A DNA stretch of 64,000 nt from Nereocystis luetkeana (taxonomy: Eukaryota; Sar; Phaeophyceae; Laminariales; Laminariaceae): contig JARUPZ010000005.1 in NCBI GenBank assembly GCA_031213475.1, forward strand, positions 9,735,848 to 9,799,847, in the 5' to 3' direction. Positions within the stretch are counted from its first letter, which is position 1. The number at the start of each line of letters is the position of its first letter. This document shows, one piece after another, positions 6,793-64,000 of this stretch. Position numbers and translations under genes: made by a program. The notes under the pieces are model-generated. The model searched no databases. It worked only from the letters and a program-made list of their open reading frames with translations, and was not told the origin of the DNA.

Positions 6793-6949
6793 GGGGGCGG
6801 GGGAGGGGGTGTACTCGATAGGAGAAATGTACTCAATTTCATGCATGTCCGTAGTCGTACGACCATAGACCCTCGCATCCCCACAATGCTGGGACGTAGC
6901 ATGTCGTGTTTTCACCGACCAGGCAGACATTGGGGGGCGGGGGTTGGGA
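6793..6949 (+). mobile_element. Repeat E copy 1, G-tract on both sides
   Basis: A G-rich tract (6793-6810) is followed by GTACTCGATAGGAGAAATGT and the conserved body (ATGCATG, CCGTAGTCGTACGACCATAG, ACCCTCGCATCC, TTTTCACCGACCAGGCAGAC). The copy stops at ACATT, where a second G-rich tract begins (6933-6949). It is truncated relative to the ~550-bp full copies. Confidence 0.8.
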
Positions 6950-7377
6950 GAAGCTCCGCAGCAATAAACCCGGGCGTAGAGAAAGGCAGACGTGCCTACA
7001 AAGTCAGCTAAATAGGCGCGCAGTGGAGCACAGACCACGGAGAATAGTGCACGTTAACGCCTCCACCGACTCCACGGCCAGGATTATGTTGTCGGAATGC
7101 CATCGCATCGTACCGCGTTTGATGGAGCCGGCCCAGGCGCTGCTGCCGGCGTCGTCGGGAGCAGCGAGCGGCGTGGAGACAGTCGAATACTGGAAGCGAG
7201 CAGCCGTGGGAGGTGCCGTCGACACGTGTTTTCTCAATCGACTCACTTGAGAGAAAGTCTCTCTACCTCGCTCAAAAGCTGGCGAAACGTGAAGCAGGAT
7301 GAGCAATCGCAGGACCTACAGCAGGCATAGTATCCCGTCAGTCATGAAACGGTTTGGCCAAAGCGTGCTCCCTTCAT

Positions 7378-7427
7378 CGGGGAGGAGGAGGAGGAGAAGG
7401 AGGAGGAGGAGGAGGAGGAGGAGGAGG
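7378..7427 (+). repeat. (GGA)n microsatellite
   Basis: About 16 GGA/GAG units with one AGAAGG interruption. Confidence 0.9.
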
Positions 7428-8249
7428 GCCCTCGCCGTCGGCGCAAGGAGTAGGAAAAGAGGAGAACAAAAAAGGTGAGAAGCTGAACAAATGGACACGG
7501 GAACCTGACAGACGCGGCTCGCCGTACACCTCTCTGAGTGTTTCGTTCGGAGGAGCTGAAAGAAACTTTTAAACGGAGAGGCAGGGGAGAGGGGAATTTT
7601 TTTTCTCAACGGCTCGATCATTCCTGCGACCCGGGCGCCAGTCGCTGGCGAAAACCCTATCGAAGGAACGTACAGATCACACCCGTTGGGCGCAAGGACG
7701 AAGGCCCATACAGGCGAACTTGACTTTCAAGGAGTACACGAGACTTACAGCACCGCGCAAGCGGAATACACAGGTTTTCCCGACATGTCAGCAGTGGAGC
7801 AACAACCACCATCCTGGCGGGCCTTGTCCTTCTGTGCCTGCTGTCAAGAGGACCCCTGTCGGGGTTGCAGCCAATCGCGCTGCTGGGGCACAAAGCAAGT
7901 GGTCGGAAGCTCCTGGGAAGTACCTCGCCAAACGACCTGCATAGATACGCTCTTTAAGGATGGCCTAGCGCCGCTGCAAGTGACGCAGGCGGGGACAAGG
8001 TGCAAAGCGGGACCTGCGAGGACCGCACCAGCAACCCAGTCAGTGCTCCGCCAAGGTCGTCCCCGACCCAACCGACTGCTTCGGTGCGGTAAACCCTACG
8101 AAAATAAGCGCCACAATTATCCAGTGTGACTACCCTAGCCGGGGTGGCAGAGTACTGAGCCGCCGGGCAAGGAGTATCTGTGACCACTCCTCTCCATGAT
8201 ACGTAGACCAGGTAGCGGAAGTATATCGTGACACGCCCCGACTGGTGCA

Positions 8250-8282
8250 CAGGGGGGAGGGCGGGGGGGGGGGGGGGGGGGA
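8250..8282 (+). repeat. G homopolymer
   Basis: GGGAGGGC followed by about 22 G residues. Unlike the E and F copies it is not followed by GTACTC. Confidence 0.9.
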
Positions 8283-9760
8283 CGGGTGACTGTGACCTAT
8301 CGAGGACAGTCTGTGTATGTGGGGGGGGTGGGTAGGCAGACGCCAGAAGCAAGGGCGGACTACGGTGTCGACGACAACGACCCACTTGGGAACGTTGCCA
8401 AGGGGGGGGGGGGGCACGCTGGTCATTCCGCGAGCAGCAGTGCCGGGCGTTCTAGCGTTCTTGCACAGTAGCTACGGCCACCGGCCGTTGCGTGGGCCCT
8501 CATGTTGTCTGAGAGCGAGCCGCCAGGAAGCACGTACTATCGTGTGGGTGCGGACCGAGGAAGCCAACGAGGAGCCAACGAAGGGTCATGATGCCTGGCC
8601 GCCTGCTGCCGGCGTGGGAGGTGTTCGGGACTGACCTCGCGAGGATTTAAAGAAGGCCCCCATCACCGCGGGAAAACGGAATTACCTCTACCGGTAGTGG
8701 TGAATCGGTTCAGCAGAGTGTTCGTGCATTGTATGCATCCCCCCTTAGATCCCAAGGATTAGTTGTGCGCGGCGTGAAACCTCCTGGCGTTGCTACTTAC
8801 CTTCGGCGTGCCGCGATTGACCGGCAGTGAAGCTGGTGAAGAAGCTTACCATCGAGTACGTCACAGTAGATACCCATCGAGACTCATGCCACTGGTGGGG
8901 GTTTTCACGTTTTGGCCCGAACATTTTCTGGCCGGTTGAGCTCCTTAAGTGAGCAACTACTAGTGTACCGGTTTACATTATGTGTTTTACTACTACTACC
9001 ACTACTACTACAGTAGAGTAGATTTGTTGTAGGGCTAGCGAGCAAAAACGTATGTCGGGTGGGACGTACGAACTTCTTCAAAGTTACGTTCCCGGCGACA
9101 TGTTGAGCTCCTCTTGTTTGCTAAACAAATCTCAGAAAAAAGTGCAGCACTCATACCGTGGCATTGATCTCTTATCCCAGTGACTGCGACCGTCACCCTC
9201 GCAGATAAAGGGGGCGTGGAGAGGATGGGCGAGTGGGTCCATGACGTATGGGCGGAGCTTTGCTCCACCTGGCCCGTGACTCCTTTCGGGCAGAGAACTC
9301 TTTAGGGTCGTTTTCGGCCGCGACGCGCGCGCGAACCTTGCACTCGACGTCCTGACCGTCGCTCTAGACGGCAACGACTTTCACGCGAGAGACCGGATTT
9401 TTTCTCCTTGGAGAAACAACAGCTGACGTTCATAAACCTACGAGGGTGACTTTGAAACGGTCGCAAGAGGGCAAGAAGAACACGTGACTCTTGCGGCACA
9501 ACGCGGGGTAATACGCACCCTGCGGAACTCCTCGGGCGAGCGGGCGCGTACAGCAGACCTATTTTTGGCCAATCAAGGAGGAAGACGGCAAGCTGACACG
9601 GGAGAGGGCACGCACACACGAAGTTGGCGGACAAGCATCGGACGGGGCCGTGTGCCGAGTAGCAGTCGTCGAGCCGCCGGGCCTCCCCTACCAGGCCACA
9701 CTTGAGTGGTCCCCTCTTCAGGAGGGGAGGCCGGTGTCGGCGGGACTTCTGCGCTATGCC

Positions 9761-9902
9761 GGCGCTTCGCGCTTGGTGCAAGCAATGTCTGCCTGGTCGC
9801 TGGAAACACGACGTGCTGTGTCCCGACATTGTAGGGATGTGATGGTCTATGGCCATACGACTGCTGTACGGCCATGAATGGTATCAAGTACCCCCCTCCC
9901 GC
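9761..9902 (-). mobile_element. Repeat E copy 2, reverse orientation
   Basis: On the minus strand this reads GGGAGGGGGGTACTTGATAC, then the E body through GACCAGGCAGACATTGCTTG to AAGCGCGAAGCGCC, where it is truncated. Identity to other copies is reduced, so it is an older insertion. Confidence 0.75.
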
Positions 9903-11310
9903 CTTCCTGTGTTCGCGGAAAGCCCAACCGAAACGCAAAATCGGTTTTTCGACATTAATATTGGTCGAAACGTATTCAAGTTTGGAGTTAGTTGTACCGC
10001 TGTTTCGTATGTTTGTGAAATCTGGCAGTAAGTCCAGCGCCGCCCATGTTTTCGAAGGAGCTTCTCACCAGGTATCTGCATGTTGCACTAACCTGGTGTT
10101 CAGCCAACACGTCAACAACACCCGGAGAATAAAGACATGGAAGGCGAAAGATTTATGATGCCCCTCTCTCTCGAATATCGCGATATATCACCAGGCTGCT
10201 GGTGGTGTTGGGTGCCAAATAGGTCACCTCAGATCGTTAACGAAAACGATCAACCCTTGCCTCGTACGTACGCAGCATTCATACAATAGGACCTTAACAC
10301 TGTGCACGACGGTGACACTAATAATGTTGTATACATAAGCTGCTGCCTCGAGGTGAATTCCTTAAACGCTCAAAACCGGACCATTTATTTTACCAACATT
10401 AGATAGAACAACTGTTATTGCCGTCGATGAGATGCATTCGAGCGCTGTTCTCAGCTTGCTTGTCTTTTTTTTGTTAAGTCGCAGTTGGAGTTGGTGCGAG
10501 TGTGGATAGAGAGACCAGTCGGCACCGGCACAGACGGCACCCCAGCTGGCGGGGTTGGGCTCTCAGACTCAACGTCTGTTTTTTTTCCTTGGAAAACCAA
10601 GAACAAAAAGCCCACGCTTCGCTCTCGCGTGCCTCATAGTAAAATACTGTTACTATATTACAGGACAGAGTTATATATATATGCCAGGACAGTAGTACGA
10701 TAGCAAGGCGGGAACAGGACACCCCACCCCCCAACAGCCATCAATAGGATGTGATTTGCCTGGTCCCTACGGCGGTGTTGTATTACGGGAAAGCACGTCT
10801 GCCGATATCTGTATATCGCAAAATGTCTCCCCGCGCCTCTAAGAAAAACCCACACGGCTCAACAGTTTAAGCGTGACAGGCACACCAAGACACTGAAAAA
10901 TGTTTGAAATATATACTCCCTGTAAATAAATGTAAAAAATGCAGCAGATCTTGACGTACCAGCACATGAGTACGTTAGTACGTATGTGTTTGTTGGTGAG
11001 TCTCATTACTGTATGATAATCGTACATATTATGGGCCTCTTCTGCTCTTGATATATAAAAAACGCAATATTTATTTATTTAATAGTTTCGGTCAGATTCC
11101 AACTATGAATCGAATATATGTATATATATATATAACGAGGGTCTCGTGCGGGTCAATCCGTCAAAAACACAAAAACACGAACAAACAGCATGCAAAAACG
11201 CGCTCGAAAACAAACAAATAACGTGTCAACTTTATCGGGGTCAAACCACTGTTCGGGGGCGAATACAACTAACTGTTGAAAAGAGCTACAGCTTGCTAAA
11301 TAAATGGTAG
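9903..11310. other. No gene recognised
   Basis: AT-richer sequence with short open frames only (for example 9874-10158 plus). A TATATATATA run lies near 11116. I find no domain, splice pair or known repeat. Confidence 0.35.
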
Positions 11311-15442: not shown

Positions 15443-35702
<20,260 letters not shown>

Positions 35703-49500: not shown

Positions 49501-52500
49501 TTTCTTTTTTTACTTGTCCTTGTTGCGTCGCCTTTTTGGTTCAAGATTTGTCGGCAGTCTTTCGCCGGCCGGCAGGCAGACAGATTACCGACAGAAACAC
49601 GCCATGCGCGGTGTTGAATAGTATTCTGATCACTTGGGAACATATGAAGCAAATACTGGTGGGGAATATGTGCTCCCCCCCCACGGTGGCGGGGTCGCGA
49701 TAAAGCTGTTATTTGACAAACACGCGGATGTGTGTGAGTTCCTGTATTCCCTGCGCCATTTCATTGCTTCGATCATTTTTTCTCGCACTATTAAAATACC
49801 AATAGGGATTCCCTTCTCCTTATTTCCCAGAAGAAAAAAACTTGAGACTTGGGAGTATTCAACCTGGCTCCTCCACTCTCTCCTGCCTTGGGGGGTTTAG
49901 GACTGTAGTCTCGTTCTGGGGACAATTGCGGACAAATTACTTGGAATTTGAGTGGCTTGTCCCCAAAACGGGACTGCAGTTCTAAAAGGCATCACCTTCC
50001 TGACCAAGGTGGTCAGCTTCACCTCGGTATTCAACGAGAGTGATTGACGTTGACAACCCTAGCGCAAAGGTTGTACTCTAGGGGCAAATCCTGTCTTCGG
50101 TACGCAGTCCAAATTGTTGCGTGTTCGGAACGCGCAACACAACAGACATCCGTGCGTGATAACACTGGAGGCACAGCAGTAGTATCGGTTGAAAGTTGCC
50201 GGTGTACGACGAAAACTATCCAAAAAAGTTGAAAGACGTCCGCTGTTTTGTATATTTAGATGTAAAAGTAGATTTAATTATTACGGGGGGCCATATTAAA
50301 TAGGACCGGCCGTACACACAAAAACCTATGTTTTCGCTATATTTTTCCTAACAATATTTGGTCCTGTTTACTTTGGTCCCCCGTAATAGCATAAATACAG
50401 GACGGGAAGTCTGACACATGGTGGGTTCGACTCCGTCCGGTCGTTGCGACGCGAGTCTTCTGGAATAGACGGCCAGGAGGGGGGGGGGGGGGAGAGGGGC
50501 CCCCCTGGCCTGGCTGCTTCCTAAGAGTGTTTTTTTTTTGTCAATACCCTGTACTTCATATAGTAGTAACCCTAACCCCGACCGCTTACGATTGTGTTCG
50601 GGATATAACAGATGGTTGATGTAATGGGGAGTCAATGTGTGCGGTGGGTATCTATCTAATGGGTATGCTCGATGCCGAGGGGTAGGCGTTATTGTGCTGT
50701 AGTAACCACGCGCAAGTCCATGGGACACGCGCTACTCGTTTTTTGGTTGTCGACAACCTCACTCGCGTGCCGCACGGTAGTGGTATTTTAAACAGACACA
50801 ACCTCTTTCGTCTGCCGCCTCATCGGCCAAGGCGTGCCAGGACAGGAAAACCAGTACTTGGTCTACCGTGTGGCTAAACTCCCGAAACATACGAGTACGA
50901 CACACTCCACTTCGCTGAGACCCGAGAGGGGTGCCGTGAATACTGTGTGGATCATATCCGAGTTGTCGCAGTCGTCGCTCTCACAACAGCGTCCGACATG
51001 CCTTGGGAGGCGCCGAGAGTAAGGGGGTGTCTCATTCGCACCGTTTTTGCACTCAACAGCGTGTGGACATACCTGTGGGGCGCACCAGAAGGAGGGATAC
51101 CGGTCTCTCTTGAATCGCTAGGGCTACTTCCGAAAGGTTATCCTGCGAGTGTTGTTCACACCGCTGACGGCCGAAAGGGGTGCTCTACGTATGGTTATCG
51201 TACACCAGGTAAATATCATCCGCAGTACAAGGCGTACTCCCAGCCTCTTGTAATACGTATCAGTCGTAGGGATTTTGAGGGTTCGACTATAGGCCCGCCA
51301 ACACCATAGAGGGCATCATCAGCAAACGCTGCTCGTGGACCTCGGCTTGCGTCGTCGGCAGCAGCAGCAACAGCAGCAGGAGCGGCGTGATTCGACATGC
51401 GCGGCAGGATCCCGAGCCCCTGGGGTCGGCGACGGGGGGTCCCGGTCCGCGTTCGTTCGCAAAAAAAGAGCTGTCACTCGAAGGAGGAATGGAGTATTTT
51501 TGTCACTATTTCCAAGCCAAACGTATGTTTCAGCCGGGCGACAGGGAAACGCTAAAAAATACTCGTACGACGTACCCTGCTTGTACTCTTGGCTCTAGAT
51601 AAACGAGACCGGTATCAATGCGACTATATCGTTGGGGTGTTGTAGTTGAATGCACCAGCTTGGTGTGTCTGGTGGATGCTGCTCGTCGTGAGGGGGTGGA
51701 CGGGGGGTTCGGTAGTGCTCGACGCGGTGTCGGGTGGGAAAGGGCTCCGACTAAAACCCCGCAACTACAATAAGAGGACGTCAGCACTGACTTGTAAACC
51801 TTTGGAGGGGGGGGGGGGGCGTACTCATTTGTTTGCTTGCCTTAGTTATTTGACCATTGACCACGCATCCCTTTCGAGGCGGAGCACCGTTCCTACTCCT
51901 AATAGAGACACCTCCAGCAATTGGGCGCTCATTGCGTTGTTTCCATACATTACATGGAAACTTTTTGCTAAACTTATCACCTTTGGAGGGGGTGATAATC
52001 AGAAGAAAACAGCGACGGAGGCTGGTGCTACAGGCTCGTGTGGTGGACTATTTTCGGGTAGCAGACTTGTGCGGTTGGTTCGTGTCGATCCGAGCGTTTG
52101 TTCTCGTACGAGCTCTGGCGTGAATCTACTATTACGGGGGACCATAGTTAACAGGACCTATGGTACACATAAAAACCTATATGTTTAACCATTTTTACTA
52201 TTACGGGGGACCATAGTTAACAGGACCTATGGTATGAATAAAAACCTAGATGTTTAACCATTTATACTAACAATATTTGGTCCTGTTAACTATGGCCCCC
52301 CGTAATAACAATATTTGGTCCTGTTAACTATGCCCTCCCTTAATACGTACTGTACATGAGTTTGAAAAGAGAGTGGAAAACTAACATTTTTGAATTAAGT
52401 TGCTTCAATAACCCCAAAAAACCGGTCATCACAACCTAACTCTGTTTCCCTATGGTGAGGTGGGCATCAAAGCTCACCATGTAGAAGTCAGAGATCGCAC

Positions 52501-54004
52501 CCGAATCTGGTGTGTACATGTCGGGTTACTACACAAAAAAAATTGGGGTCCATCGTGAAAGCTGAGCATTCCTACATACCCCCCCCCCCCCCCGTGATAT
52601 GTTTATTCCAGAACCGACGACAAACGCATCCACTGCAACGCAACCCAAACCAGAACCGAACACCGAACACCGAACACCGAACCAAACCCACACCCGAACC
52701 AAAACGTAGACCTAAACGATAACCACAACCAATCCACACCCGAACCCCGAACCCCGAACCCCGAATCCCCCCCCCCTGCTACCAGGATACGTCGGCCCGC
52801 GACCGTTGCTCGATATCTATCCTCGTCCTGAACGTGCACGGCGCGGGGCACACGGCCTTCGACCAGGCCCGAGAAGCGCACGAGGGGAAACCCGGGGTGG
52901 TTTTCCTCACGATTGAGGAGGGGGTGGATGCCAAGGGGTTGCCCATCCAGGTGGGAGATGGGCGCCCGAACCCGCGCGGGGCCAGCAGGAAGGCTATGCC
53001 TACGCCTAAGGTAAGGAGGGGGGGGGGGCGAGGGGTGCGGGGGATGGGGGTGCGGGGGGGGGGGGGTGTACTTGATAGGAGAGATGTACTCGATCTCATG
53101 CATGGCCGTAGTCGTATGGCCATAGACCCTCGCATCCCTGCAATGCCGGGACGGAGCATGTCGGGTTTTCACCGACCAGGCAGACGTTGCTTGCACCAAG
53201 CTTTGCGAAGCGCCGTGAGGTGTCCGGCGAGTCGCATGAAGGGTGAACTGCATCCTACTAGGGGGGGGGCGGGGGGGGGCAGGGGGGGCTTGCTCGGACG
53301 AGCTCTTGCTTTTTTGTCGTTGCTGTCTTGGTTGTTTTTGTTCAGTTTGTAGGGAGGTTGTTTTTGGACGCGGGGGGGGAGGGGGTGGGGGTTAGATGGC
53401 AGGGCAAGTTGTTCGCGCGAGAACACTTGCTTGTTTGTCGTTGCTGTCTTTTGGTTGTCTTTGTTTTCGCTGTGGTTGTTGTTGTTGTTGTTGTGGCTTG
53501 GGTTGTTATTGTCTGTTTGTGTATTTGTTTTCTCTTTTCCTCGCTTTGGAAGGAAAAAATGGGTGGTCTCAAATACCAGGTACCATGTGGTGTTTAATAT
53601 ATTAACACTGCAGACTATTAATAGTCTGGCAGGTTTTGCTCGAACTTTGCTTGTGCCGATGCCCGATACTCTTGTCAGCCGTGGCGAACACGTAGGGGGT
53701 AGGGGATAGACGATAATAGCAAAACAAGCTGGAAGGGCGGCGAAAGCGTTTCAAGGGTGTGTTTAGCGGTTTACTACCCGGGTGCCCCAGAGTGTAATAC
53801 TCACCAAAAGCCTTCGAGGGTTTCATGTTACGTTTCTTTCCTGCGTGTCTTTCCCGTTCCTTTTTTCTTCGTGCTGTTTTCGCGTGTGCTTACATGTCGA
53901 CGTTTAGTTTTGTTGGGATGTTGGTGTTTGGTGTCGGTGTTGATGTCGGCGTTGGTGTTGATGTTGGTTGTTGGTGTCGGCGGTGCTGGTGCTACGGTAG
54001 TATT

Positions 54005-54048
<44 letters not shown>

Positions 54049-57000
54049 GCGCCGTATCGCAGTGTTTACTGCTTTGCCACTGCTGCTTATCTTGTCGCTG
54101 TTGGGATTCCTCCAATGCAGTCAATACACCTTGTGCATTTTCGTATTTCCCTCGGAACAAATATCTCGAACACGTCGATTCTTGCTGTGTATCTGTTGAT
54201 CATTCTTGCTCAAGTGTCGTTTTTTTTATGTTGGTAAACTCTTCGTGTGCTTGCTTTGCTCAGCAGTGCTGTTCATTGCCGATTGTTGTTCTTTCTTTTG
54301 TGTTTCGCGTTGCGTCGTTGTCTGTGCGTGTTCTTGTCCTTCCTGTAGGTGCGGAAGCAGACGCGCGACCTGGTCTACCTGTTGAGAGCCGCAGCAGGCA
54401 GGGCTGACCACTATCTCTTCATGGAGGACGACATGCGCCTGTGCGCGGGGGGGGCGGCGGCGATCGGGCGGATGCTGGGCAAGGCGCATAGGTGAGGAAC
54501 CTCCCACGGGGAATCGGAGGGAGGGGGGGAGGGGGGGGGGGGGGGGGGGGGGGTACTCATTTGTTGCTCGCCTTTTCGAGTCATCTGGCCATTGACAACG
54601 CATCGCTTTCGAGACGGAGCACCGCTCCTACTCCCACTAGAGACACCTCCAACCTCCAACATTTGGGGGGGGGGGGGGGAGGAAGGAGGGGGGGGCATAC
54701 TCATTTGTTGCTTGCCGTTCGGGAAAGTTGACCGCTGACCACTCGTCCCTTCCTACTCCTGATATGACACCTCCAACGGTTGGGCGCTCCGTACGTTATT
54801 TCCACAAGCATATTACGTAGACCAGTACGTATCGATTTTTTTTCGCTTCTCTTGTTCATCCCTCTCCTGTTTCGCCGACTGTGGCCACCATCTACCTTCA
54901 TCGGAAGCGAAGCGATCGTTTTCTCGGCACTACTCTATCACGGAGTGGCCATAGTAAATAGGACCTACGGTACACACAAAAATCTATACATTTATATATT
55001 TTTACTATTATATCAATATTTGGTCCTATTGACTATGGTCCCCCGTAGTAGTATACTAAACTTATCAATTTCACGGGGGTGTGGTGGGGGGGGGAGGGCA
55101 GGAAAAAAGCAGATTTATGTGGCGGGTTGAAAGTGTCGGTGTAAATCAAGGATGCACGTTTGCCCGGGGGGGGGGGGGCGGGGGGGAAGGGTACTCGATA
55201 GGAGATATATACGTACTCGATCTCATACATGGCCGTAGTCGTATGACCATAGACCCTCGCATCCCTGCAATGCCGGGACGGAGCATGTCGGGTTTTCATC
55301 GACCAGGCAGACATTGCTTGCACCAAGCGCGAAGCGCCGTGAGGCGTCCGGCAAGTCGCATGAAGGGTGAGCTGCATCCTACTAAGAACGGTTTGTGAGG
55401 CGGGCTTGCATGTGGGTGACAGCTTCAATGAGCCAATTTAATTTCCGGTGTAGGCATTCCCAAAGACAACAGTGGGAACACTATGTAACTGACTCCTAGG
55501 TGCCTTCACGCGAACACAACGTGATACGATCAATCCCACTTGTGCGGAGTAAAAAACAATCCCTCGCACAAATGATCTACAGTAACTCGACGACCAGCTG
55601 TGGGCGACCGCCAAAAACAAAATAATAGAAGGAATAAAAGTAAGAGGCGGTACCCTGGTTGTCTAGCTCACGTAGTGAGCGGCATGTTTTACAGTGTCGT
55701 TGCCAACCGACGCCAACCCCAATCTATATATAATATAGGGGGGGGTGGGGGCGGGGACGCCCTTGTTGGTAGCCGTTCGCCTTATATAATCCCTCTTGGG
55801 TGTGTTGTAGTATCACGTTGCCCCCGCCGTGCTGTCCGACTGACTGCTGGCGCTGTCACTAGGACCCCGATTTGCATTAATATTAATATTATGAGTATCA
55901 TCCCTCCCAATCACGCGGCGGCCGGCCGTTGCTGGAGTCGTCATAATGTTTTGTCCGTTTTTCTCCTCTCAACGGTTGGGAGGATTTCTGTACGTTGACC
56001 CACCCGGCTGCGGGCGCGAACGTCACTCGCGAAACGGCGACCACCATAAAATATGGAGCGACGTTTGATGGCGGCAAAGGCAAAAACGGAAATCGATCGA
56101 CATCATCTCCGTTCTGGGATTGATCGCCATCGCCAGCTCCCTTCTGGGATGGGTCACGGTCGTCATCCCCCCATCCTGCGGTCTCCAGTACAGTAGTGTA
56201 TTGAGGCGTTTCCCAGCAGGGTCGGTTTTCGCGTTCCGCGAACGGCGATTTGTGTGAGAGCGTCACGCGGACTATATACGAGCGAACGCGTCGTCAGTGT
56301 GGTATGTACTCGTACACGTATCACGCATCGCTGGTGCCAATTGGTGATAATCGGCGCGTTTTTCCTTCGCACACGAAGTGTAAATGTTCTCAGAGTGTGC
56401 TTTAGGCTGCAGGAGGCTCTACCTGCTGCAGTCGGGGGGGGTCGATTTATTTTCACGCACGAGCTTACCTTGTCGGCACGTCGATGTTTTCTGTATGGTT
56501 TCCCGGTGATCACCTGATATACTGCGGTACAAGGAAGGCCGGCCTTGTGCCCGCTTTGCACCCACCAGTTGTTTCCGAACGCTGCCCGCCCCCCCCCCCA
56601 CCCACCCCCGTCCCCACCCCCCTGCCTCCTTCAGACCTTTACGCCAACTTGCCGCTAGTTTGTCGACGTATCAAGGCAGCGACACTTTTTTCGCGATATC
56701 CCGCCCCACGACGACGGTCATGCATGTCATTTTTACAGTATTACGGGGGACCACAGTTATTGTTACGGGGGGCCATAGTCAACAGGACCAAATATTGTTA
56801 GTAAAAATGGTTAAAACATATAGGTTTTTACCTATACCATAAGTCCTGTTAACTATGGTCCCCAGTAATAGCACCAAGTACTGTAAGTAAAAATGGTTGA
56901 ACGTATAGGTTTTTTATGTATACCTCAGGTCCTATTAACTATGTTCCCCCCCCCTGCCCACCTTCGCCGCCGCGTTTGCCCCGTTGCCCCCCGCCCCCCG

Positions 57001-60000
57001 CCCGTCAGCTATTACTCGGACTGGATCGCGATCCGATCGTCCTTCGGCATGAACGGCATCCTCATACAGGAAAGGGACGTGTTGCCCTTCGCGAGCTACC
57101 TCGAGAACCACCAGCAGCGCCGCCCGCCAGACCACCTCGTCGTGAGTGTCCTTATTTTTGTGGACTAGGTTGACAGGTGCAGCATATGCTGCCAGTATAA
57201 TAAACGGACATTATGCTTGTACCGGCAATGTGCTGAGCTAGCGGTATGCCTGTACTGGCAGTACGCTTCTACTGGCCGAGAGCACTGTAGACTTGGAGAA
57301 TATACTGGAACTTATTTCAAATGTCGTACGTCCCTCTACCTGCCATCCCATATATACACCAGGTATATTATATTAATAGTTGTAATTGTGAAATGTTCGT
57401 TCTTTTTCGAGCATATTTCTTAGTACGAGCGCTTTTGGGGCAAAACGCCAAGCAGTCGACACGGGAAGCCCGGCCGGACACATCGGTCGGGGTCCGGGCA
57501 CATCGGTCGAGGTCCGGGCGCGATCCGTGCACTCCGGAGTGCGTGGAGGGCGCTCAAAGTTTTGTTTTCCCCCCGGCGGGAGTGGATAAAAGACGTTTCC
57601 CCTGGTATCAGTGCGAGAGGCATTCTTTTGTACGTACGTACTGGTATATATTATTATATGGTATAGTATTGTTGTCTGTTTGTATGAATATCTAGGGATT
57701 AGTATCGCCCCCCTCCGCCCCAATGGTGGGAGTAAGAGGGGTTGTAGTGCTCTGCATCGCTCTCGAGGGTCACGAGGTAGATACTCCACACAAAGAAAGA
57801 CCTACGATAGGTGAAAGCCCTGATACTCCACACGAAGAAATACCTACAATAGGTGAAAGCCCTGAAGGGAATCGGTCAACATTCTGATACTCCACTCGAA
57901 GATATACAATAGGTGAAAGCCCTGAAGAGAATCGGTCAACATTCTGATACTCCACACGAAGATATCCAATAGGTGAAAGCCCTGAAGAGAATCCGTCAAC
58001 ATTCTACTACGGGGGGCCATAGTTAACAGGACCAAATATTGTTAGTAAAAATGGTTAAACATATACCTGGTAGGTTTTATGTGTACCATAGGTCCTGTTA
58101 ACTATGGTCCCCCGTGATAGCTGTAATAGATTGTGGTATGTGATACGACGGAAAGCTGCATAGAGGAAGAAGTGGGCAACGGAAGAGGGGGGGGGGAGAG
58201 AGAGAGAGAGGGGGGGGCGGGGTGCTTTCCTTCCTTGTCTTCTGCGTCCTTTGTAGTTCCTTCTGCAGTATTTTTGTGTATCTCTGTGGTTCTACAGTAT
58301 ACGCTTCTGTACTTTCCTGTGTTGTGAGAGTTTTTGTTGTTGTTGTTGCGTGTTCTGTGTGTGTGTGTGTTTTTTTTTCTGTTTGTACTCATTGTTGTCG
58401 CGTTCATCGGCCTGATGTCGCTGAGCGAGCGCGCCTACGTGGAACTCTTGATTGTTCAAAAGTTCAGCCAATCATCTAAAACTCCTCGACAAATACCAGG
58501 AGCCCCCCAGGCAAAAAAAAATGCAACACCGGCAGGTTAACCCCGTTAGAACCGCAGTCCCGTTTTGGGGACAAACCACTCAAATTTCTATCAATTTTTC
58601 ATCCTCAATGGGACGCGGCAGTCCTTGAAAGGGTGTGGAGCCTTTGCTTTTCACCAGTTCGCCGGAGGATTTGTATAAGCACAAAAAAAAAAACGTCCCG
58701 ACGGTCTTTTTTTTTCTTTTTTTTTTGTCGTTTTGTCGCGATTTCGGCAAGAACAGGCGCCGTTGTCGAAACCTACCGCCTCGGAAGTATTGAAACTCCT
58801 CTGCATCCCCCCCCACCCCTTCGCGCTCCGCGCTTGGTTCAAGCAATGTCTGCCTGGTCGGTGAAGGCCCGATGGGTCCCGTCCCGGCATATGTGGGGAT
58901 GCGAGGGTCTATGGTCATACGACTACGGCCATGGGTGACATGAGTGCACCCCCTCTCCACCCCTCCTCTCCTTTCCGGCTGCCTAGTGACACGCGTTTTG
59001 GCGCATCCGACGCCGTTGTAAAAGCCCACCGCCTCCTGAGCGTCGAAACCCATGTGTAACCCTCTTCGCTCCTCCGCGTTACCCCCTCCCGACTGCGCAC
59101 GCCTCCGGGGTGTTGACCCCTGCAGGTGGAATGGTTTGCCGGCGAGACGGCAGAAAGGTGAGGGTTGTTTTTTTTGTGTGGTTAGGTTGTGGTTCGGTTT
59201 GTTTTCTCATTCTTCTTTTTTTTCACGCGTGTATGAAAAAAGTGAAGTTGAAAAAAAAAAAAAAAAAAAAACGCAGGTGAGAACCAAGATTGCAGTGGCG
59301 CGTTCACGTGTGTTATTCCGACCCCCTTTGGACGTGCAGCGCACCCCAAGTGTTCGTTCTTATTCGCCGCCTCGTTGCTGTTTATAGTATCTTCCTGCTC
59401 TGAGCGTAGCCCGTCTGCGGCTATATAACCCCGGGAACGGAGGTTATGTGGCCGATCTCGCAATCGTCGTTCGGATTTCGTGGCCTTTTCCCTTTCAAGT
59501 CCGGGTATCACGACTGTCATGCCATCATCCATGGCAAGTGTATCATCGTTGCGTCCGTCCCAAAAACGAAAAAAAGTAACCGCCCACCGTCGTGTTTCCG
59601 CTGAACAACCCCCCTCTCCCCTTGTGAAGTCTCGCGCTCAAGGCCGGGCGGGAACACATGGCCTTCCGCCACAACATTTTCGAGCACCTGGGGTCCGTCA
59701 GCACGCTCAGGGGCAAACTCTCGCCCGCCTACCCATCCTGTTTCGAGGAACTGACCACGAAGACGCTGTTCGCGGTGAGCGCCGCAAATCGCAACGCCCA
59801 CCCAACCACCCACGCACCCACCTATCCCCCCCCCCCGCTCCGTCCCCTCCGTCCCCGCACCCACTCCTTATGTCCCGCCTTGGCGTCTACCTTAGCTACC
59901 TCCTTAGAGTCTGACTTAGGTGCTTCCGGAGCTACCTTCTAGGCTGCCGTCTAAGCTACTGTCTAAGCTGCTGCCTAATCTGCTGCCTTGACTGCTGCCT

Positions 60001-60581
60001 TAGCTGCTGCCTTGGCTACTGCCTTGGCTGCTGCCTTGGCTGCTGCCATGGCTGCTGCCTTGACGTCTGCCTCGACTCTTGCCTTGGCTACTGCCTTGGC
60101 TGCCGCCTTGGCTACTTCCTTGACTACTACCTTAGCCACTGCCTCGGCAAATCCCCTACCTCACGTCCAATACGCTACCTCGCCTGGCCGTGTTCCGTCC
60201 CGCGGCGTGGCGTAACCTTCCGTCCATTCAATGTTTTTTGCTTCCTTCGTACCTGGTATTTCATTTTAACTACGCGAAGTATATTATTAATATTACGGGG
60301 GACCATAGTTAATAGGACCTCTGGTATACATAAAAACCTATATATTTAACCATTTTTACTAACAATAGTTGGTCCTACTAACTATGGCCCCCCGTAATAG
60401 TGTTTTCTTATGTTTTTTTTTAATATATATTGGCAACCGGCGACAGGTGGAAGCGTTCGACTTCTCCAAGTGTTCCTCCGACGACCTGTCGCCATGCGCC
60501 GTCTCCGACAGCGCCAAGATGGGTTTCCCGCAGATAAATTGGCCCCAGCTACACCGGGATAAAAAACAGAGACGGGCCTGA
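36391..60581 (+). CDS. GT54 (MGAT4-like) N-acetylglucosaminyltransferase, eight exons
   Basis: Predicted Golgi type II membrane enzyme of family GT54, which adds beta-1,4-GlcNAc to the alpha-1,3-mannose arm of N-glycans using UDP-GlcNAc. Exons (plus): 36391-36873, 47918-48259, 52786-53010, 54349-54491, 57009-57141, 59125-59156, 59630-59774, 60447-60581; intron phases 0,0,0,2,0,2,0. The 545 residues (animal MGAT4 about 535) comprise a basic cytosolic tail, a membrane anchor at about 62-84, a Pro/Gly-rich stem, then LGIPTVPR (247-254), FMEDDMRLC (374-382) with the acidic EDD sugar-nucleotide/metal motif, SDWIAIRSSFGMNGILI (401-417), RRPPDHLVEWFAGET (435-449) and a C-terminal VEAFDFSKCSSDDLSPC. 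The catalytic exons 3-8 are secure. Exon 1 is joined by phase, topology and total length only. Donor specificity within GT54 is inferred. Confidence 0.85.
38334..38784. mobile_element. MITE-B copy 6, split by SINE-1
   Basis: The left arm (CCTTTAAGAACTCCAGTCCC) ends near 38405 and the right arm resumes at 38751 (TGTCCCCCAAAACGAGACTG, ending AAAGGGTTAA). SINE-1 copy 2 sits between them. Confidence 0.88.
38408..38750 (+). mobile_element. tRNA-derived SINE-1, copy 2
   Basis: Same head, body and A tail (about 25 A) as copy 1. The flanks TGTCCCCAA and TGTCCCCCAA look like a target duplication within the host MITE-B. Sense orientation in GT54 intron 1. Confidence 0.93.
38880..39003. mobile_element. 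MITE-A copy 5
   Basis: Reverse-oriented copy with GGGGACC duplicated in the left arm and a CCTGGTAGG insert in the middle. GT54 intron 1. Confidence 0.9.
39553..39752. mobile_element. MITE-A copy 6, host of a MITE-B
   Basis: Left end TTACGGGGGGG. The element resumes after MITE-B as AATAGGACCTACGG and ends CACCCGTAA. Part of the left arm was lost at the junction. Confidence 0.85.
39563..39650. mobile_element. MITE-B copy 7, nested in MITE-A
   Basis: CTTTTACCACCGCAGTCCCG on the left, and ACGGGACTGCGGTTCTGAAA then GGG and TTAA on the right. Confidence 0.88.
40371..40459. mobile_element. MITE-B copy 8
   Basis: Starts TTAACCCTTTTAGGACTGCA and ends GGTGCTAAAAGGGT. GT54 intron 1. Confidence 0.9.
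40528..40872 (-). mobile_element. tRNA-derived SINE-1, copy 3
   Basis: Reverse copy: the minus strand starts GGTCGCCCCGGTGGCTCAAG, has B box GGGTTCGAGCCCC and ends in an A-rich tail with AAAGAAAAAGAAAA interruptions. Antisense in GT54 intron 1. Confidence 0.92.
41510..41617. mobile_element. MITE-A copy 7
   Basis: Nearly intact: TTACGGGGGACCATAGTTAG left, TTAACTATGGTCCCCCGTAC right. A run of nine A lies in the middle. Confidence 0.92.
41651..41847. mobile_element. Two MITE-B copies in tandem (9, 10)
   Basis: One copy runs about 41651-41745 and another about 41755-41847. The second carries a TACCAGGTATG insert in its loop. Both are diverged at the inner ends. Confidence 0.8.
41868..42060 (+). 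repeat. GCTAAG hexamer minisatellite
   Basis: Degenerate AAGGCTAAGGCTAAGGTAAC and ACGCTAAGACC units over about 190 bp in GT54 intron 1. Confidence 0.8.
42120..42545 (+). repeat. ~58-bp minisatellite
   Basis: About seven units of the type TACTCGGTCGGCGCTGACCG, AGGCCAGTAGG, TTATCCCTGCTTTTGATAG. It starts right after the GCTAAG tract. Confidence 0.8.
43279..43385. mobile_element. MITE-B copy 11
   Basis: Diverged inverted repeat: AGACCCTTTTACGGCAAACT left, GAAACGGGACCGACTGCAGT right. Confidence 0.7.
43503..43585. mobile_element. MITE-B copy 12
   Basis: Both arms are present (GCACTGCAGTCCAAGTTTGG; CCCCAAAACGGAACCGCGGT). TTAA ends are lost. Confidence 0.8.
43735..43780. mobile_element. MITE-B fragment
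   Basis: Single arm: TCAGGGGACTGCAGAGTCCG then TTTTGGCGACAAAACACTC. Confidence 0.6.
43833..44290 (+). mobile_element. Repeat E copy 4, long
   Basis: Lacks the G-tract end but has most of the body: GCCGGGACGGAGCATGTCGG, GGCGAGTCGCATGAAGGGCG, TTCCAGAGACAGCAATGGGA, TGGTTGTCTAGCTCACGTAC, ending in GACGCCAACCCAACCTACTC. Confidence 0.85.
44291..44400 (+). mobile_element. Repeat E fragment, tandem to copy 4
   Basis: GGCGAGTCGCATGAAGGGCG through TGCATCCTACTAAGAGCCGC to GATAGCTTCAACGAG. It shows the empty MITE-A site. Confidence 0.8.
44481..44511. mobile_element. MITE-A fragment (copy 8)
   Basis: Left arm only (TTGCGGGGGACCATAGTTAA then TAGGACC), cut off by a GC-rich palindromic stretch (GCGGGCGGCCAACGCCGCCCGC). 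Confidence 0.8.
45641..45719. mobile_element. MITE-A copy 9, left arm missing
   Basis: CTATGGTATACATAAAAACC to TTAACTATGGTCCCCCGTAA. GT54 intron 1. Confidence 0.88.
45829..45913. mobile_element. MITE-B copy 13
   Basis: GTACTGCAGTCCCGTCTCTG left, GTCCCCAGAACGGGACTGCG right. Confidence 0.82.
46029..46220. mobile_element. Two MITE-B copies side by side (14, 15)
   Basis: Copy 14 at about 46029-46125 (CCCTTTTAGAACCGCAGTCCC-type, right arm GTCCCCAAAACGCGACTGCG), copy 15 at about 46132-46216 with a TTGGTATATATAG loop insert. Confidence 0.85.
46456..46484 (+). repeat. G-rich tract
   Basis: GGAGGGGGAGGG then a G run. It is not followed by GTACTC. Confidence 0.85.
46526..46596 (+). repeat. (CTG)n tract
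   Basis: About 23 CTG-type units with TTG, CCG and ACG variants, ending in a pure CTG run. Confidence 0.9.
46727..46832. mobile_element. MITE-A copy 10
   Basis: Complete reverse copy, TTACGGGGGACCATAGTAAA to TACGGTCTCCCGTGA, with TA flanks. Confidence 0.92.
46933..47057 (+). repeat. (TTCC)n microsatellite
   Basis: About 30 TTCC units. Lysine/glycine/arginine/glutamate-repeat frames over it on the minus strand are by-products. Confidence 0.95.
47335..47490 (-). mobile_element. Repeat F copy 2, C-tracts on both sides
   Basis: Minus strand: GGGGGGGGCGTACTCATTTG, TTGCTTGCCGTCGTCATTTG, CTTCGAGACGGAGCACCGTT, TAGAGGCACCTCCAACAGCT, then GGGCGCTTAGAGAG and a second G run (complement of 47341-47360). 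Confidence 0.85.
47554..47575 (+). repeat. C homopolymer
   Basis: About 20 C, within a C-rich stretch 47500-47660. Confidence 0.9.
47690..47910 (+). repeat. AC-rich tract before GT54 exon 2
   Basis: G-poor, degenerate CCAAACCNAAACC and AACCGATAACC blocks run up to the acceptor CAACAGCAG. Similar to 52620-52775. Confidence 0.7.
47918..48259 (+). CDS. GT54 exon 2: stem and domain start
   Basis: Reads IRGSGMDESHASVLPPANTL, a low-complexity stem, then SVILGIPTVPRPRGVSYLEE and TLSAVLSQVGEE. A nearby alternative acceptor at 47914 keeps the frame (one extra Gln). Donor GAG then GTGGGT. Confidence 0.82.
48287..48372 (+). mobile_element. Repeat E copy 5, short
   Basis: A G-run of about 20 with GGGAGGGG, then TGTACTGGATAGGAGATATG, to ACCATAGACG. 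The next bases are again G-rich. It starts 27 bp after the GT54 exon 2 donor. Confidence 0.85.
48760..49300 (+). repeat. ~115-bp tandem repeat, four units
   Basis: TGGGTCCATCGTGGGCTCTG, AATGTTACTACAAATGCCCA, CCCGGAATAG, AACATGCAGTACGTGTATTT, TTGTTGTTGAGAAAAGTAA. Units start near 48838, 48952, 49066 and 49180. A related flank (GAGGGCATACATGGTCTCTG) follows at 49380. GT54 intron 2. Confidence 0.88.
49896..49989. mobile_element. MITE-B copy 16
   Basis: TTTAGGACTGTAGTCTCGTT left with a 10-bp GGACAATTGC insert, CCCCAAAACGGGACTGCAGT then TCTAAAAGG right. Confidence 0.87.
50281..50386. mobile_element. MITE-A copy 11
   Basis: Complete: TTACGGGGGGCCATATTAAA left, CTTTGGTCCCCCGTAA right, TA flanks. 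GT54 intron 2. Confidence 0.92.
50479..50494 (+). repeat. G homopolymer
   Basis: About 15 G, followed by AGAGGGG rather than an E or F copy. Confidence 0.85.
50876..51309 (+). CDS. Orphan open frame in GT54 intron 2
   Basis: An open run of about 144 codons (first ATG 50947, MDHIRVVAVVALTTASDMPW). The upstream open part reads TYEYDTLHFAETREGCREYC and the downstream part reads KGYPASVVHTADGRKGCSTY. The composition is protein-like, but I cannot match a family. It may be a dead gene fragment or chance. Confidence 0.25.
51807..51935 (+). mobile_element. Repeat F copy 3
   Basis: A G-run, then CGTACTCATTTGTTTGCTTG, GACCATTGACCACGCATCCC, TTTCGAGGCGGAGCACCGTT, TAATAGAGACACCTCCAGCA. GT54 intron 2. 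Confidence 0.85.
52132..52343. mobile_element. MITE-A copy 12, host
   Basis: Outer element whose middle (ATTTTTACTAACAATATTTG) is split at the TA by copy 13. Its right end is TGCCCTCCCTTAA. Confidence 0.92.
52201..52305. mobile_element. MITE-A copy 13, nested in copy 12
   Basis: Complete 105-bp element flanked by TA/TA inside another copy of itself. The junctions show exactly which two bases are duplicated. Confidence 0.95.
52618..52775 (+). repeat. AC-rich tract before GT54 exon 3
   Basis: ACACCGAACACCGAACACCG and GAACCCCGAACCCCGAACCC blocks, then a C run and the acceptor TGCTACCAG. Confidence 0.75.
52786..53010 (+). CDS. GT54 exon 3
   Basis: Encodes DTSARDRCSISILVLNVHGA, GHTAFDQAREAHEGKPGVVF, LTIEEG and on to MPTPK. 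This is the Rossmann-like core between the LGIPTVPR strand and the EDD motif. Phase 0 on both sides; donor GTAAGG. Confidence 0.88.
53017..53290 (+). mobile_element. Repeat E copy 6
   Basis: G-rich run from 7 bp past the exon 3 donor, then TGTACTTGATAGGAGAGATG and the body to TGCATCCTACTA, where a second G-rich run begins. Confidence 0.87.
53470..53502 (+). repeat. (TTG)n tract
   Basis: GTGGTTGTTGTTGTTGTTGT, part of a T/G-rich stretch in GT54 intron 3. Confidence 0.8.
54006..54045 (+). repeat. (CTG)n microsatellite
   Basis: About 13 CTG units, 300 bp before GT54 exon 4. Confidence 0.9.
54349..54491 (+). CDS. GT54 exon 4 with EDD motif
   Basis: Encodes VRKQTRDLVYLLRAAAGRAD, HYLFMEDDMRLCAGG and on to LGKAH. 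FMEDDM is equivalent to the LEDDI acidic motif of MGAT4. Acceptor CTTCCTGTAG, donor GTGAGG, ending two bases into a Ser codon. Confidence 0.92.
54520..54668 (+). mobile_element. Repeat F copy 4
   Basis: A G-rich run (54520-54552), then TACTCATTTGTTGCTCGCC, TTTCGAGACGGAGCACCGCT, CACTAGAGACACCTCCAACC, closing at another G-run. It starts about 30 bp after the exon 4 donor. Confidence 0.87.
54669..54805 (+). mobile_element. Repeat F copy 5, adjacent
   Basis: A G-rich run, then GCATACTCATTTGTTGCTTG, TGACCGCTGACCACTCG, ACACCTCCAACGGTTGGGCG. Confidence 0.82.
54938..55047. mobile_element. MITE-A copy 14
   Basis: TCACGGAGTGGCCATAGTAA left, GACTATGGTCCCCCGTA right. Diverged. Confidence 0.88.
55168..55750 (+). 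mobile_element. Repeat E copy 7, full length
   Basis: A G-run, then GTACTCGATAGGAGATATAT, the whole body, ending CAACCCCAATCTATATATAA then TATAG and another G-run. With copy 11 it gives the full-length consensus of about 550 bp. Confidence 0.9.
56741..56953. mobile_element. MITE-A copy 15 with nested copy 16
   Basis: The outer copy begins at 56741. A complete inner copy runs about 56763-56868, and the outer body then continues (AAGTAAAAATGGTTGAACGT) to GTTCCCCCCCC. A second self-insertion, in GT54 intron 4. Confidence 0.85.
57009..57141 (+). CDS. GT54 exon 5
   Basis: Encodes SYYSDWIAIRSSFGMNGILI, QERDVLPFASYLENHQQ and RRPPDHLV (the first base completes Ser). Matches the conserved W..I..S.G..GI block of GT54. 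C-rich tract plus CGTCAG acceptor, donor GTGAGT. Confidence 0.92.
57765..58005 (+). repeat. ~65-bp tandem repeat
   Basis: CTGATACTCCACACGAAGAA, ATACCTACAATAGGTGAAAG, CCCTGAAGGGAATCGGTCAA, CATT, three to four units of 56-67 bp. MITE-A copy 17 abuts its right end. Confidence 0.88.
58007..58117. mobile_element. MITE-A copy 17
   Basis: CTACGGGGGGCCATAGTTAA left, GGTCCTGTTAACTATGGTCC then CCCGTGA right, with a TACCTGGTAGG block inside. Confidence 0.92.
58545..58636. mobile_element. MITE-B copy 17
   Basis: TTAACCCCGTTAGAACCGCA left, a diverged right arm ending CAGTCCTTGAAAGGG. Confidence 0.8.
58826..58945 (-). mobile_element. Repeat E copy, reverse
   Basis: Minus strand: GGGGGTGCACTCATGTCACC, ATGGCCGTAGTCGTATGACC, then the body to GCTTGAACCAAGCGCG. 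It begins at a C-rich run on the plus strand. Confidence 0.82.
59125..59156 (+). CDS. GT54 exon 6 (32 bp micro-exon)
   Basis: Encodes VEWFAGETAE and two bases of Ser. Acceptor CCTGCAG, donor GTGAGG. VEWxxGET is conserved in GT54-like proteins, and the phase fits exons 5 and 7. Confidence 0.88.
59630..59774 (+). CDS. GT54 exon 7
   Basis: Encodes LALKAGREHMAFRHNIFEHL, GSVSTLRGKLSPAYPSCFEE and LTTKTLFA. The FRPSLFQHVGxxSSL-type block of MGAT4 is recognisable as FRHNIFEHLGSVSTL. The acceptor is taken as TTGTGAAG (not the later TCAAG), because only it keeps frame. Confidence 0.9.
59878..60165 (+). repeat. 12-bp GCTGCCTTGGCT minisatellite
   Basis: About 24 degenerate 12-bp units in GT54 intron 7. 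One frame reads as Ala/Leu/Thr-rich repeats because the period is a multiple of three. Confidence 0.9.
60293..60397. mobile_element. MITE-A copy 18
   Basis: Complete and near consensus, TA flanks, 50 bp before GT54 exon 8. Confidence 0.94.
60447..60581 (+). CDS. GT54 exon 8 (C-terminus)
   Basis: Encodes VEAFDFSKCSSDDLSPCAVS then SAKMGFPQINWPQLHRDKKQ, RRA and TGA. VEAFD..C..D is the conserved end of the GT54 domain. Confidence 0.9.
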   Translation: MEAFDFSKCSSDDLSPCAVSDSAKMGFPQINWPQLHRDKKQRRA

Positions 60582-60984: not shown

Positions 60985-61110
60985 GGGCCGGAGGGGGGGG
61001 GGGGGGGGGGGGCGGGGGGTACTCGATAGGAGAGATGTACTCGATCTCATGCATGGCCGTAGTCGTAGGACCATAGACCCTGGGGGGAGGGGGGGGGGGG
61101 GAGAAAGCAT
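60985..61110 (+). mobile_element. Repeat E copy 8, short
   Basis: A G-run, GTACTCGATAGGAGAGATGT, to GGACCATAGACCC, then a second G-run. Confidence 0.85.
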
Positions 61111-61157: not shown

Positions 61158-61183
61158 CCCTCTAGGGGGGGGGGGGGTGGGGG

Positions 61184-61226
<43 letters not shown>

Positions 61227-61326
61227 GCACTCATGTCATGCGTGGTAGTGGTCATGAGACCGTAGACCATTGCATCCCTACAATGCCTCGACGGAGCATA
61301 TCGGGTTTTTCATCGACCCCGCAGTA
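61158..61326 (+). mobile_element. Repeat E copy 9 after ~65-bp G tract
   Basis: The longest G tract of the window (61158-61225), then TGCACTCATGTCATGCGTGG, ACCGTAGACCATTGCATCCC, to GGGTTTTTCATCGACCCC. Confidence 0.82.
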
Positions 61327-62300: not shown

Positions 62301-62384
62301 GGAGGGAGGGGGGGGGCGGGTGCACTCGATAGGAGAGATGTACTCGATTACATGCATGGCCGTAGTCGTATGCAGGGGGGGGGG
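62301..62384 (+). mobile_element. Repeat E copy 10, shortest
   Basis: A G-run, TGCACTCGATAGGAGAGATG, to GCCGTAGTCGTATGCA, then a second G-run of 12. Confidence 0.85.
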
Positions 62385-62439
62385 GGGCACATAGTTACAT
62401 AGCTTTGGTGTGGAGGCATTCGTTGGGCGGGATCTAGAC

Positions 62440-62735
62440 AGGCAAGGCGGCTAGGCCTGTACTGGCATCAAGAAGATAGGGCTGTTCAGGCAGCTAAGTC
62501 TTTACAGGCCTTGAGGCTGAGGCAGCCAGGCAGCCAGGCCTGTAAAGGCGGCTAGGCAGGCAGGCAGCTAGGCTTGTGCATGGCAGCTAGGTAGGTAGCT
62601 AGGAAAGTTGTCGTTTAGGCAGCTAGATCTGTAGGTCTGTACAGGCAGTAAGGCTAGGCAGGCAGGTAGCTAGGCCTGTAAAGGCGACTAGGCCTGTAAA
62701 GGCGGCTAGGCCTGCACGGCAGCTAGAAGGTACCT
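62440..62735 (+). repeat. GGCAGCTAGGCCTGTAAAGG minisatellite
   Basis: About 12 degenerate units of 16-24 bp built from GGCAGCTAGG and CCTGTAAAGGCGGCTAGG. Confidence 0.85.
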
Positions 62736-62759
62736 GGTAACTGGGAAGGTTAGCGCATG

Positions 62760-63120
62760 GGCCCCGGTGAGCCAGTCACCCCAACCCGTGTCGCGCGCCG
62801 CGCCTACCATATGCTCATTCGTCCGTGATTGTCGAGTGGCGGCGCCAGACCAAGCAGAACCGCGGTGAATTTGCTCTGATTTGATGATAAATCGGGTGAA
62901 CGAAATTGGAGGGAGGGAGGGAGGGATGCACGTAAGGATACCTTGCGTGGCCACTTGCTGGCTACGGTGGTGAGAGTATGGGCCGTGTTTGTTTTTGCCT
63001 TCGTGGTGTGAAGGGCTGTTTTTGTCGTTTTTTTGTTATTGCAGTAATGCGTGCTATTAACGGCGCACCTGACTTGTTGTACCTAGCATCTCTGTTTAAT
63101 TTTGGTGGTGCCTGTCTCTC
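62760..63120. other. No gene recognised
   Basis: An 82-codon minus frame (62706-62954) and a plus frame from 62978 have no recognisable motif. Confidence 0.35.
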
Positions 63121-63264
63121 GCTGTCATCGTACTACACAATAGCAGTGGGCCCTGACTGTTGTAGAAAATCAGTAGTTTTCCTTGTTTTTTTCGTGTGTT
63201 CTTGTTTTTTTCTGTGTATGTGCTTGTTTTTCTCGTCTTCCTCGCGTGGGGGCGGAAGTAAGGG

Positions 63265-63815
63265 CGGCGGGGGGGGGGGGGGTACTCGTTATCTCGTTAT
63301 CATGCGTGGCCGTAGTCGTATGACCTTAGACCCTCGCATCCCTGCAATGCCGCGACGGAGCACGTCGGGTTTTCACCGGCCAGTCAGATATTGCTTGCAC
63401 CAAGCGCGAAGCGCCGTGAGGTGTTGGGCGAGTCGCATAAAGGGTGAGCTGCATCCTGTCAAGGACCCGTTTGAGGCGGATTTTCTGGCGTATGTATGAC
63501 AGCGTCAATGAGTTGATTTATTTTCTGGTGTGGCCACTTCCAGAGACAGCAATGGGTTTAATATGTAACTGCCTCGTGGGTGTCTTACCGTATACCAGGT
63601 ACACACTACGTGATACGATCATCCCCCTTGTGCAGAGTGAAGGTTCTCCCCGCACAAGAATGATCTATAGCTCGACCGCCAGCCGTGGTGACCGCAAAGG
63701 AAGAAACAAAAACGGTTCCCGGTTATCTAGCTCACGCAGTGAGAGGCGTGTTTTACAGCGTCGTCGCCAGCCGACGCCAACCCAACCTATATATATATAT
63801 TCCAGGTATATAATA
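63265..63815 (+). mobile_element. Repeat E copy 11, full length
   Basis: A G-run, GTACTCGTTATCTCGTTATC, the full body, ending CGACGCCAACCCAACCTATA and a TATATA stretch with a CCAGGTATA insert, then G's. Confidence 0.9.
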
Positions 63816-63944
63816 TAGGGGGGCTGTCGTGGTACTACACCAGCAGTAATGGGCCCGCCCTGACTGTTGTAGAAAATCAGTGGTTCTCTTGTTTTTTTTT
63901 TCGTGTGTGTTTGTTTTTTTCTTTTTCCTCGTGGGGAGGCGGAA

Positions 63945-64000
63945 GTAGGGGCGGGGGGGGGGGGGGGAGGGGTTATTGGATATCATGCATGCCCATACGG
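63945..64000 (+). mobile_element. Repeat E copy 12, cut by window end
   Basis: A G-run, then TTATTGGATATCATGCATGC and CCATACGG at the last base. Confidence 0.75.

Follow-up and report, generated by a model that had tools for sequence, protein, structure and literature searches.

LINE-1, a long interspersed nuclear element (LINE), nicks its target at TTTT/AA. In the brown alga Ectocarpus, a non-autonomous element of about 600 bp, RTEX-N1_Ec32, is described as present in more than 6,000 copies; its 5' region is of unknown origin, and its 3' end is conserved with the autonomous RTE-X LINEs RTEX-1_Ec32 and RTEX-2_Ec32 (PMC12477816). This RTEX-N1/RTE-X pair is the closest published relative of the system reported here, likened to it by description alone. 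We analysed a 64,000-nucleotide stretch of Nereocystis luetkeana DNA (contig JARUPZ010000005.1, positions 9,735,848 to 9,799,847; hereafter the window), in which an initial annotation had pointed to a repeat, E, with a G-run at a fixed end and a variable other end. E is probably a non-autonomous, non-long terminal repeat retroposon of about 521 bp, resembling a short interspersed nuclear element (SINE) and most likely moved in trans by a LINE of about 4.1 kb. The best reading, in which we have good confidence, is that E inserts by target-primed reverse transcription, primed by a G-run on an RNA ending ...GAGTAC-C(n).

The E family and its G-run end

The end motif of E, GTACTCGATAGGAGA, has 8,538 exact occurrences in the 465-Mb assembly that holds the window, 4,222 forward and 4,316 reverse, whereas the reversed motif, as a control, gave 0 and 2. 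Among the reverse-strand copies, to which this share refers, 4,149 of 4,316 (96.1%) carry GGGG within 6 nt of the E end; the same pattern with CCCC gave 0 and 1. In the window, the dozen or so copies proposed initially are indeed one family. All 13 named places align together; 12 are BLAST matches of the copy at 55.2 kb, itself included, and the 13th, at 63.95 kb, was recognised from the alignment and from a local duplication to which it belongs. With at most one mismatch, GTACTCGATAGGAGA marks six E copies (at 6811, 48310, 53068, 55191, 61019 and 62322), and with at most three mismatches it gives 8 matches against a shuffle mean of 1.1. In the remaining window copies the end is shorter, altered or diverged relative to the motif.

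The description of a G-run followed by a fixed end holds in that a sharp GTACTC end lies behind a G-rich run, at least 5 G being present within 15 bp upstream of the E end in 66 of 72 copies. It needs qualification in that some ends are shorter or altered and many runs are broken by a single C, A or T. The unit GTACTCGAT is single in some aligned copies and doubled in others. The E consensus, built from 29 near-full copies, is 526 bp long, of which about 521 bp are the element and the remainder is G. Overlapping 3-kb loci (L002-L007) were excluded from the consensus and from later counts, and loci L070-L075 are not part of the 72-copy truncation, 79-copy duplication, 71-copy far-end or 109-copy stacking counts given below.

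Homopolymers are error-prone and run length differs among the copies, so that the G-runs and the words repeated at the junctions could in principle have arisen by misassembly or slippage at an otherwise ordinary dispersed repeat. The concordance of 4,149 of 4,316 copies against 1 in the control, and the non-G sequence within the junction words, make this explanation exceedingly improbable.

The E copies of the window are given below; plus denotes that the G-run comes first, and the coding sense of the LINE is on the opposite strand.

6793 to 6932, plus: E copy, G-run first, truncated; the far end also has a G-rich tract
9760 to 9910, minus: E copy, truncated; neither G-run nor duplication seen at the far end
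18600 to 18771, plus: E copy, interrupted by a miniature inverted-repeat transposable element (MITE) with terminal inverted repeats that follows it
43833 to 44280, plus: E copy without the GTACTC end
44300 to 44394, plus: E fragment
48287 to 48369, plus: E copy with a run of 17 G and a short body; duplication CGTCGGGGGG
53018 to 53279, plus: E copy, truncated, with a G-run at each end
55166 to 55748, plus: full-length E copy with a G-run at each end
58814 to 58950, minus: E copy, truncated, with a shorter TGCACTC end
60993 to 61101, plus: E copy, truncated after about 60 bp, with a G-run at each end
61165 to 61324, plus: E copy behind a G tract that contains a 41-G run
62308 to 62387, plus: E copy, truncated after about 50 bp, with a G-run at each end
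63269 to 63807, plus: near-full E copy
63953 to 64000, plus: E copy cut by the window end, within a local duplication of 63.1-63.3 kb

The local tandem duplication (63121-63314 and 63823-63997, 71% identity) includes E flank, G-run and E start.

Truncation and the far end of E

The far end was initially taken to be variable, and 42 of the 72 E copies whose GTACTC end is intact and whose flanks are long enough do stop early, between 51 and 487. The breakpoints of these 42 are not different from uniform (Kolmogorov-Smirnov p 0.38). The other 30 share a full-length end near position 521, which reads ...CCTATATAAAATA-GGGG. Copies sharing both ends had been named as grounds for giving up the retroposon reading; these 30 of 72 are nevertheless better explained by a short element present at full length than by a different mechanism. 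The truncation count requires flanks of 70/60 bp, and the duplication and far-end tests 75/60 bp. The 72-copy set counts one place twice (L023 and L051) and keeps the paralogous rows L017, L030 and L058. From the duplication tests onward L051, the same place as part of L023, is excluded, and L030 and L058 are kept though paralogous to L017.

The 25 bp downstream of the breakpoint contain at least 5 G in 24 of the 41 truncated copies and in 28 of the 30 full ones, whereas 3.3% of random positions show this. The G-run is not confined to one end, as had been supposed, and at the far end of full copies the G may be the element's own end. A G-run at each end of full-length copies is also what a DNA transposon or MITE with G-rich ends might display. 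Such an origin is hardly credible here: the consensus starts GTACTCGATAGG and ends CTATATAAAATAGGGGG with G on the same strand, not as terminal inverted repeats, truncation is one-sided and falls at many points, and the tail is common to an element that bears a reverse transcriptase. Loci L017, L030 and L058 hold one truncated E insertion present in three copies of a larger repeat; thus, some E copies owe their multiplication to the repeat that hosts them.

Target duplications and the origin of the G-run

Flanking target duplications, which the initial annotation had called for, were found. An exact junction word of 8-20 bp that ends in GGG and holds at least 3 non-G bases flanks 13 of 79 copies (12 of 71 E copies and 1 of 8 LINE copies). 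Swapped flank pairs gave such a word in 128 of 6,162 cases, or 1.64 per 79 (Poisson P 2e-8). When the GGG condition is dropped, a word with at least 3 non-G bases is present in 16 of 79 copies, against 5.97 expected, and 12 of these 16 still end in GGG. When G is discounted, the two flanks of a copy agree better than shuffled pairs do, the observed sum being reached by 5 of 10,000 permutations. Examples of duplicated words are GAGTGGGTCAGGGGGGGGGG, GGGGTACCTAAACCGGGG and TGCCAGTGGGGGGGGG and, in the window, ACCTTTGGAGGGGG at the LINE end at 51.8 kb and CGTCGGGGGG at the E copy at 48.3 kb. Together with the common 3' end and the spread of 5' truncations, the duplications bear out the earlier attribution of E to target-primed reverse transcription.

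The 13 copies with a GGG-ending word allow the two G-runs to be compared. That of the far target copy measures 3-10 G, a minimum of 3 being imposed by the test itself; the element-side run exceeds it in 10 copies, matches it in 2 and falls short of it in 1. The G-run is therefore partly the target's own and partly added, which qualifies the poly(C) tail that had been proposed in place of poly(A). An alternative is a genuine long poly(C) tail on the RNA, either encoded or added, in which case the insertion would create the G-run instead of choosing it. Lengths such as 21 versus 3 and 17 versus 6, among the 10 of 13 longer element-side runs, would suit this explanation. We consider it rather unlikely, since the far target copy too has a G-run in all 13, 12 of the 16 words found without the GGG condition end in GGG, run lengths are nearly equal in L045 (10 and 10) and L040 (7 and 8), and 24 of the 41 truncated copies have a G-run after their far end as well. 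At least part of the G-run thus comes from the target itself.

The probable partner LINE

A LINE ending GAGTAC-C(n) had been predicted, and a candidate was found: an element of about 4.1 kb that is predicted to encode an apurinic/apyrimidinic (AP)-type endonuclease (PF03372) and a reverse transcriptase (PF00078). A second family in the window is its 3' end, which lies behind G-runs at 47.4, 51.8, 54.5 and 54.7 kb and without a G-run at 23.4-23.6 kb:

23406 to 23595, minus: LINE 3' fragment, end without a G-run
47366 to 47481, minus: LINE 3' end, 5'-truncated, with a G tract at each end
51803 to 51983, plus: LINE 3' end, 5'-truncated, with a 14-bp duplication ACCTTTGGAGGGGG whose second copy ends at 51991
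54531 to 54679, plus: LINE 3' end, 5'-truncated, with a G-run at each end
54680 to 54937, plus: LINE 3' end that follows the preceding copy head to tail across a G-run

Elsewhere in the genome, members of this family share more than 1.3 kb of sequence and have a reverse transcriptase on the strand ending GAGTAC-C(n). Scoring 40 of 3,946 first-look candidates gave at least 49 matches, the query locus L013 itself included, and three copies are 97.5-97.9% alike. The LINE tail motif GTACTCATTTGTTGCTTGCC (20 bases) has 1,163 reverse-strand sites with GGGG within 6 nt, which is a plain count and not a share of motif sites. The reverse transcriptase matches PF00078 at 5.3e-20, and its best solved-structure matches are R2 and LINE-1 ORF2p. 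In the C2 copy, which is about 4.1 kb long and starts GGAAGAGATTAG after a C-run, an AP-type endonuclease lies upstream of the reverse transcriptase (PF03372, 2.4e-11); the endonuclease gave no match in the PDB. In L072 and L073, the TGA that closes the reverse transcriptase frame overlaps the terminal GAGTAC, so that the LINE tail is the end of the coding region. For an assignment to the RTE-X clade, this overlap is only suggestive.

The 3' end of the LINE, GAGTAC(G)-C(n), is homologous to the E end. A profile of 12 LINE tails matches the E consensus at an E-value of 0.001, the best of 200 shuffles reaching 2.7, and both profile and alignment place the match, 50-56 bp long, at a corresponding distance from the common end. 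E thus has what is expected of a SINE with a LINE-derived tail, a 3' end in common with a LINE from its own genome. Two LINE copies with a clear duplication have the same kind of target as E. One case is the 5'-truncated L072, which sits within the G-run preceding an E copy; its two sides read C13TCGCACT and GAGTACG-C10TCGCACT, a duplication of its own G-run. It could be argued that E is unrelated to this LINE, the tail likeness being due to chance or gene conversion, and is moved by another LINE, as the tail homology is just about 50-56 bp at 0.001 and most of E is without a detected relative. This is very unlikely, because the two tails match at equivalent positions relative to the same GTAC-G(n) end and because both families have end G-runs and the same type of duplication.

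Other candidate relationships were rejected. The E head gave no BLAST match to L073, L075 or L069, which speaks against its derivation from the LINE 5' end. As a partner, L069, the best-scoring reverse transcriptase family of the genome, was discarded: it has a reverse transcriptase but no E tail. This family (G000:C5:2842300-2847600) has many copies with nearly equal scores and an open frame of about 1,250 amino acids; by eye, it has an AP-like endonuclease and a downstream AC repeat, and its tail is unrelated to E. An ancestry of E from 5S rRNA or tRNA, suggested by eye, was unsupported by Rfam or ARAGORN. Rfam gave no tRNA, 5S or 7SL family for five full-length E copies at E-values up to 5, and ARAGORN found no gene in the window and, for the E head, none among the matches listed. 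E is therefore a SINE only in the loose sense, no RNA polymerase III head being recognised. For a hairpin in the shared tail, RNAalifold gives 12 pairs, of which 1 is changed on both sides, which is too weak for a claim.

Proposed mechanism and its consequences

In the mechanism that we propose, the endonuclease would nick the strand that carries the G-run, immediately 3' of that run. The ...GGGG-3'OH so released would pair with the C-ending RNA terminus (...GAGTAC(A/G)CC..) and prime reverse transcription, and a second, staggered nick 8-20 bp away would yield duplications of the form X(n)G(n). A long poly(C) tail is not required. Each insertion would duplicate, and often lengthen, the G-run and so provide new targets, and family members would come to stack head to tail across shared G-runs. 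A same-orientation family start lies within 70 bp after 18 of 109 copies, against 1.3% for random positions in the same loci, and none was found in the opposite orientation; this stacking fits re-use of duplicated G-runs. At roughly even chances, the LINE/SINE pair runs the homopolymer scheme of LINE-1 on G:C instead of T:A, so that the family increases the number of its own targets and forms head-to-tail arrays.

Several observations weigh against this mechanism or leave it less complete. No run of 5 G lies within 25 bp of the far end in 17 of 41 truncated E copies, and 66 of 79 copies have no exact GGG-ending junction word, as expected where the duplicate is G alone or old. A first duplication test on all bases of 14 window copies gave P 0.13, since G-runs match one another by chance; the later tests discount G. 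The tail homology between E and the LINE is short. The LINE copy in L023 has the same GGAAGAGATTAG start but no C-run at its 5' end, and all LINE copies read are broken, split or truncated, none being intact. An empty-site pattern for the L017/L030/L058 target gave 0 matches; beside L058 there is a related unit with 8 G and without E, which is a diverged repeat unit and not an allele.

Hand-set intervals place 19 of the 45 G/C runs of at least 9 in the window next to or within copies, and the E/LINE family may be one of the main sources of this genome's long G/C homopolymers. Such homopolymers are unstable and hard to assemble, and the family offers a suggested source for them. It links a highly abundant repeat with an identifiable LINE and a simple target rule. 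With it, one can ask in a natural setting whether the insertion site of a LINE is set by endonuclease preference alone or by primer-template pairing as well.

Other sequence families in the window

The MITE-like family that interrupts E at 18.77 kb has inverted repeats (TACTATTACGGGGGACCATAG...CTATGGTCCCCCGTAATAG) and a length of about 112 bp. Its sites are 18767-18878, 26338-26451, 41507-41620, 50273-50391, 52127-52345, 54935-55050, 56748-56950, 58001-58120, 60283-60401 and others. A palindromic repeat of about 90 bp occurs in both orientations (15777-15868, 19925-20022, 27961-28054, 34050-34146, 39564-39654, 40366-40460, 46037-46125 and others). Copies of a repeat of about 340 bp at 32401-32755, 38407-38750 and 40532-40873 are 91-95% identical, and it is present too in L009, L013 and L022. 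The words ACCAGGTA/TACCTGGT occur at 44 sites in 64 kb, against about 2 estimated for a random 8-mer on both strands. Examples are 3350, 22804, 41797, 58064 and 63594, of which 58064 lies inserted in a MITE and 63594 in an E copy; the TA-CCWGG-TA form would be compatible with footprints left on excision by a DNA transposon that inserts at TA and has 5-nt overhangs.

Searches of the window reading frames against Pfam and PDB gave no usable match, E had 0 occurrences in viral contigs, and a phage BLAST search gave short weak matches only. The EsV-1-7 family is expanded in brown algae. For its repeat, 150 scored matches were obtained from 1,713 candidates in the assembly and 0 in 14 control genomes, a weak control because the three named control genomes are prokaryotes.

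Comparison with known systems

E resembles RTEX-N1_Ec32 in being a short, abundant, non-autonomous element of a brown alga with a 3' end shared with a LINE, and is of the same kind, possibly its counterpart, by description and not by sequence. Unlike for E, G-runs or C-ending RNAs are not mentioned in the excerpted account of RTEX-N1_Ec32 (PMC12477816). The Bov-tA/Bov-B pair, as described, likewise joins a short element to the 3' end of its partner LINE, whereas no tRNA or 5S head is detectable in E, whose target is G-rich (PMC3747384). As in the same account of LINE-1, the LINE of E has an AP-type endonuclease and a target homopolymer that would pair with the RNA 3' end; the E/LINE pair differs in using G:C and not T:A, and in having a 3' end common to the partner, as in the stringent type (PMC3747384). 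Togen is another LINE that prefers a simple repeat, (TG)n, but it groups with NeSL-type elements, and no G/C homopolymer target is named in the excerpted description (PMC4640811). In the titles and abstract starts of the open-licence PMC papers searched, no LINE that targets G-runs or is C-tailed is described. The E/LINE pair appears to be a real pair of a known kind, and what looks unusual in it is the combination of a G-run target with a C-ending RNA.

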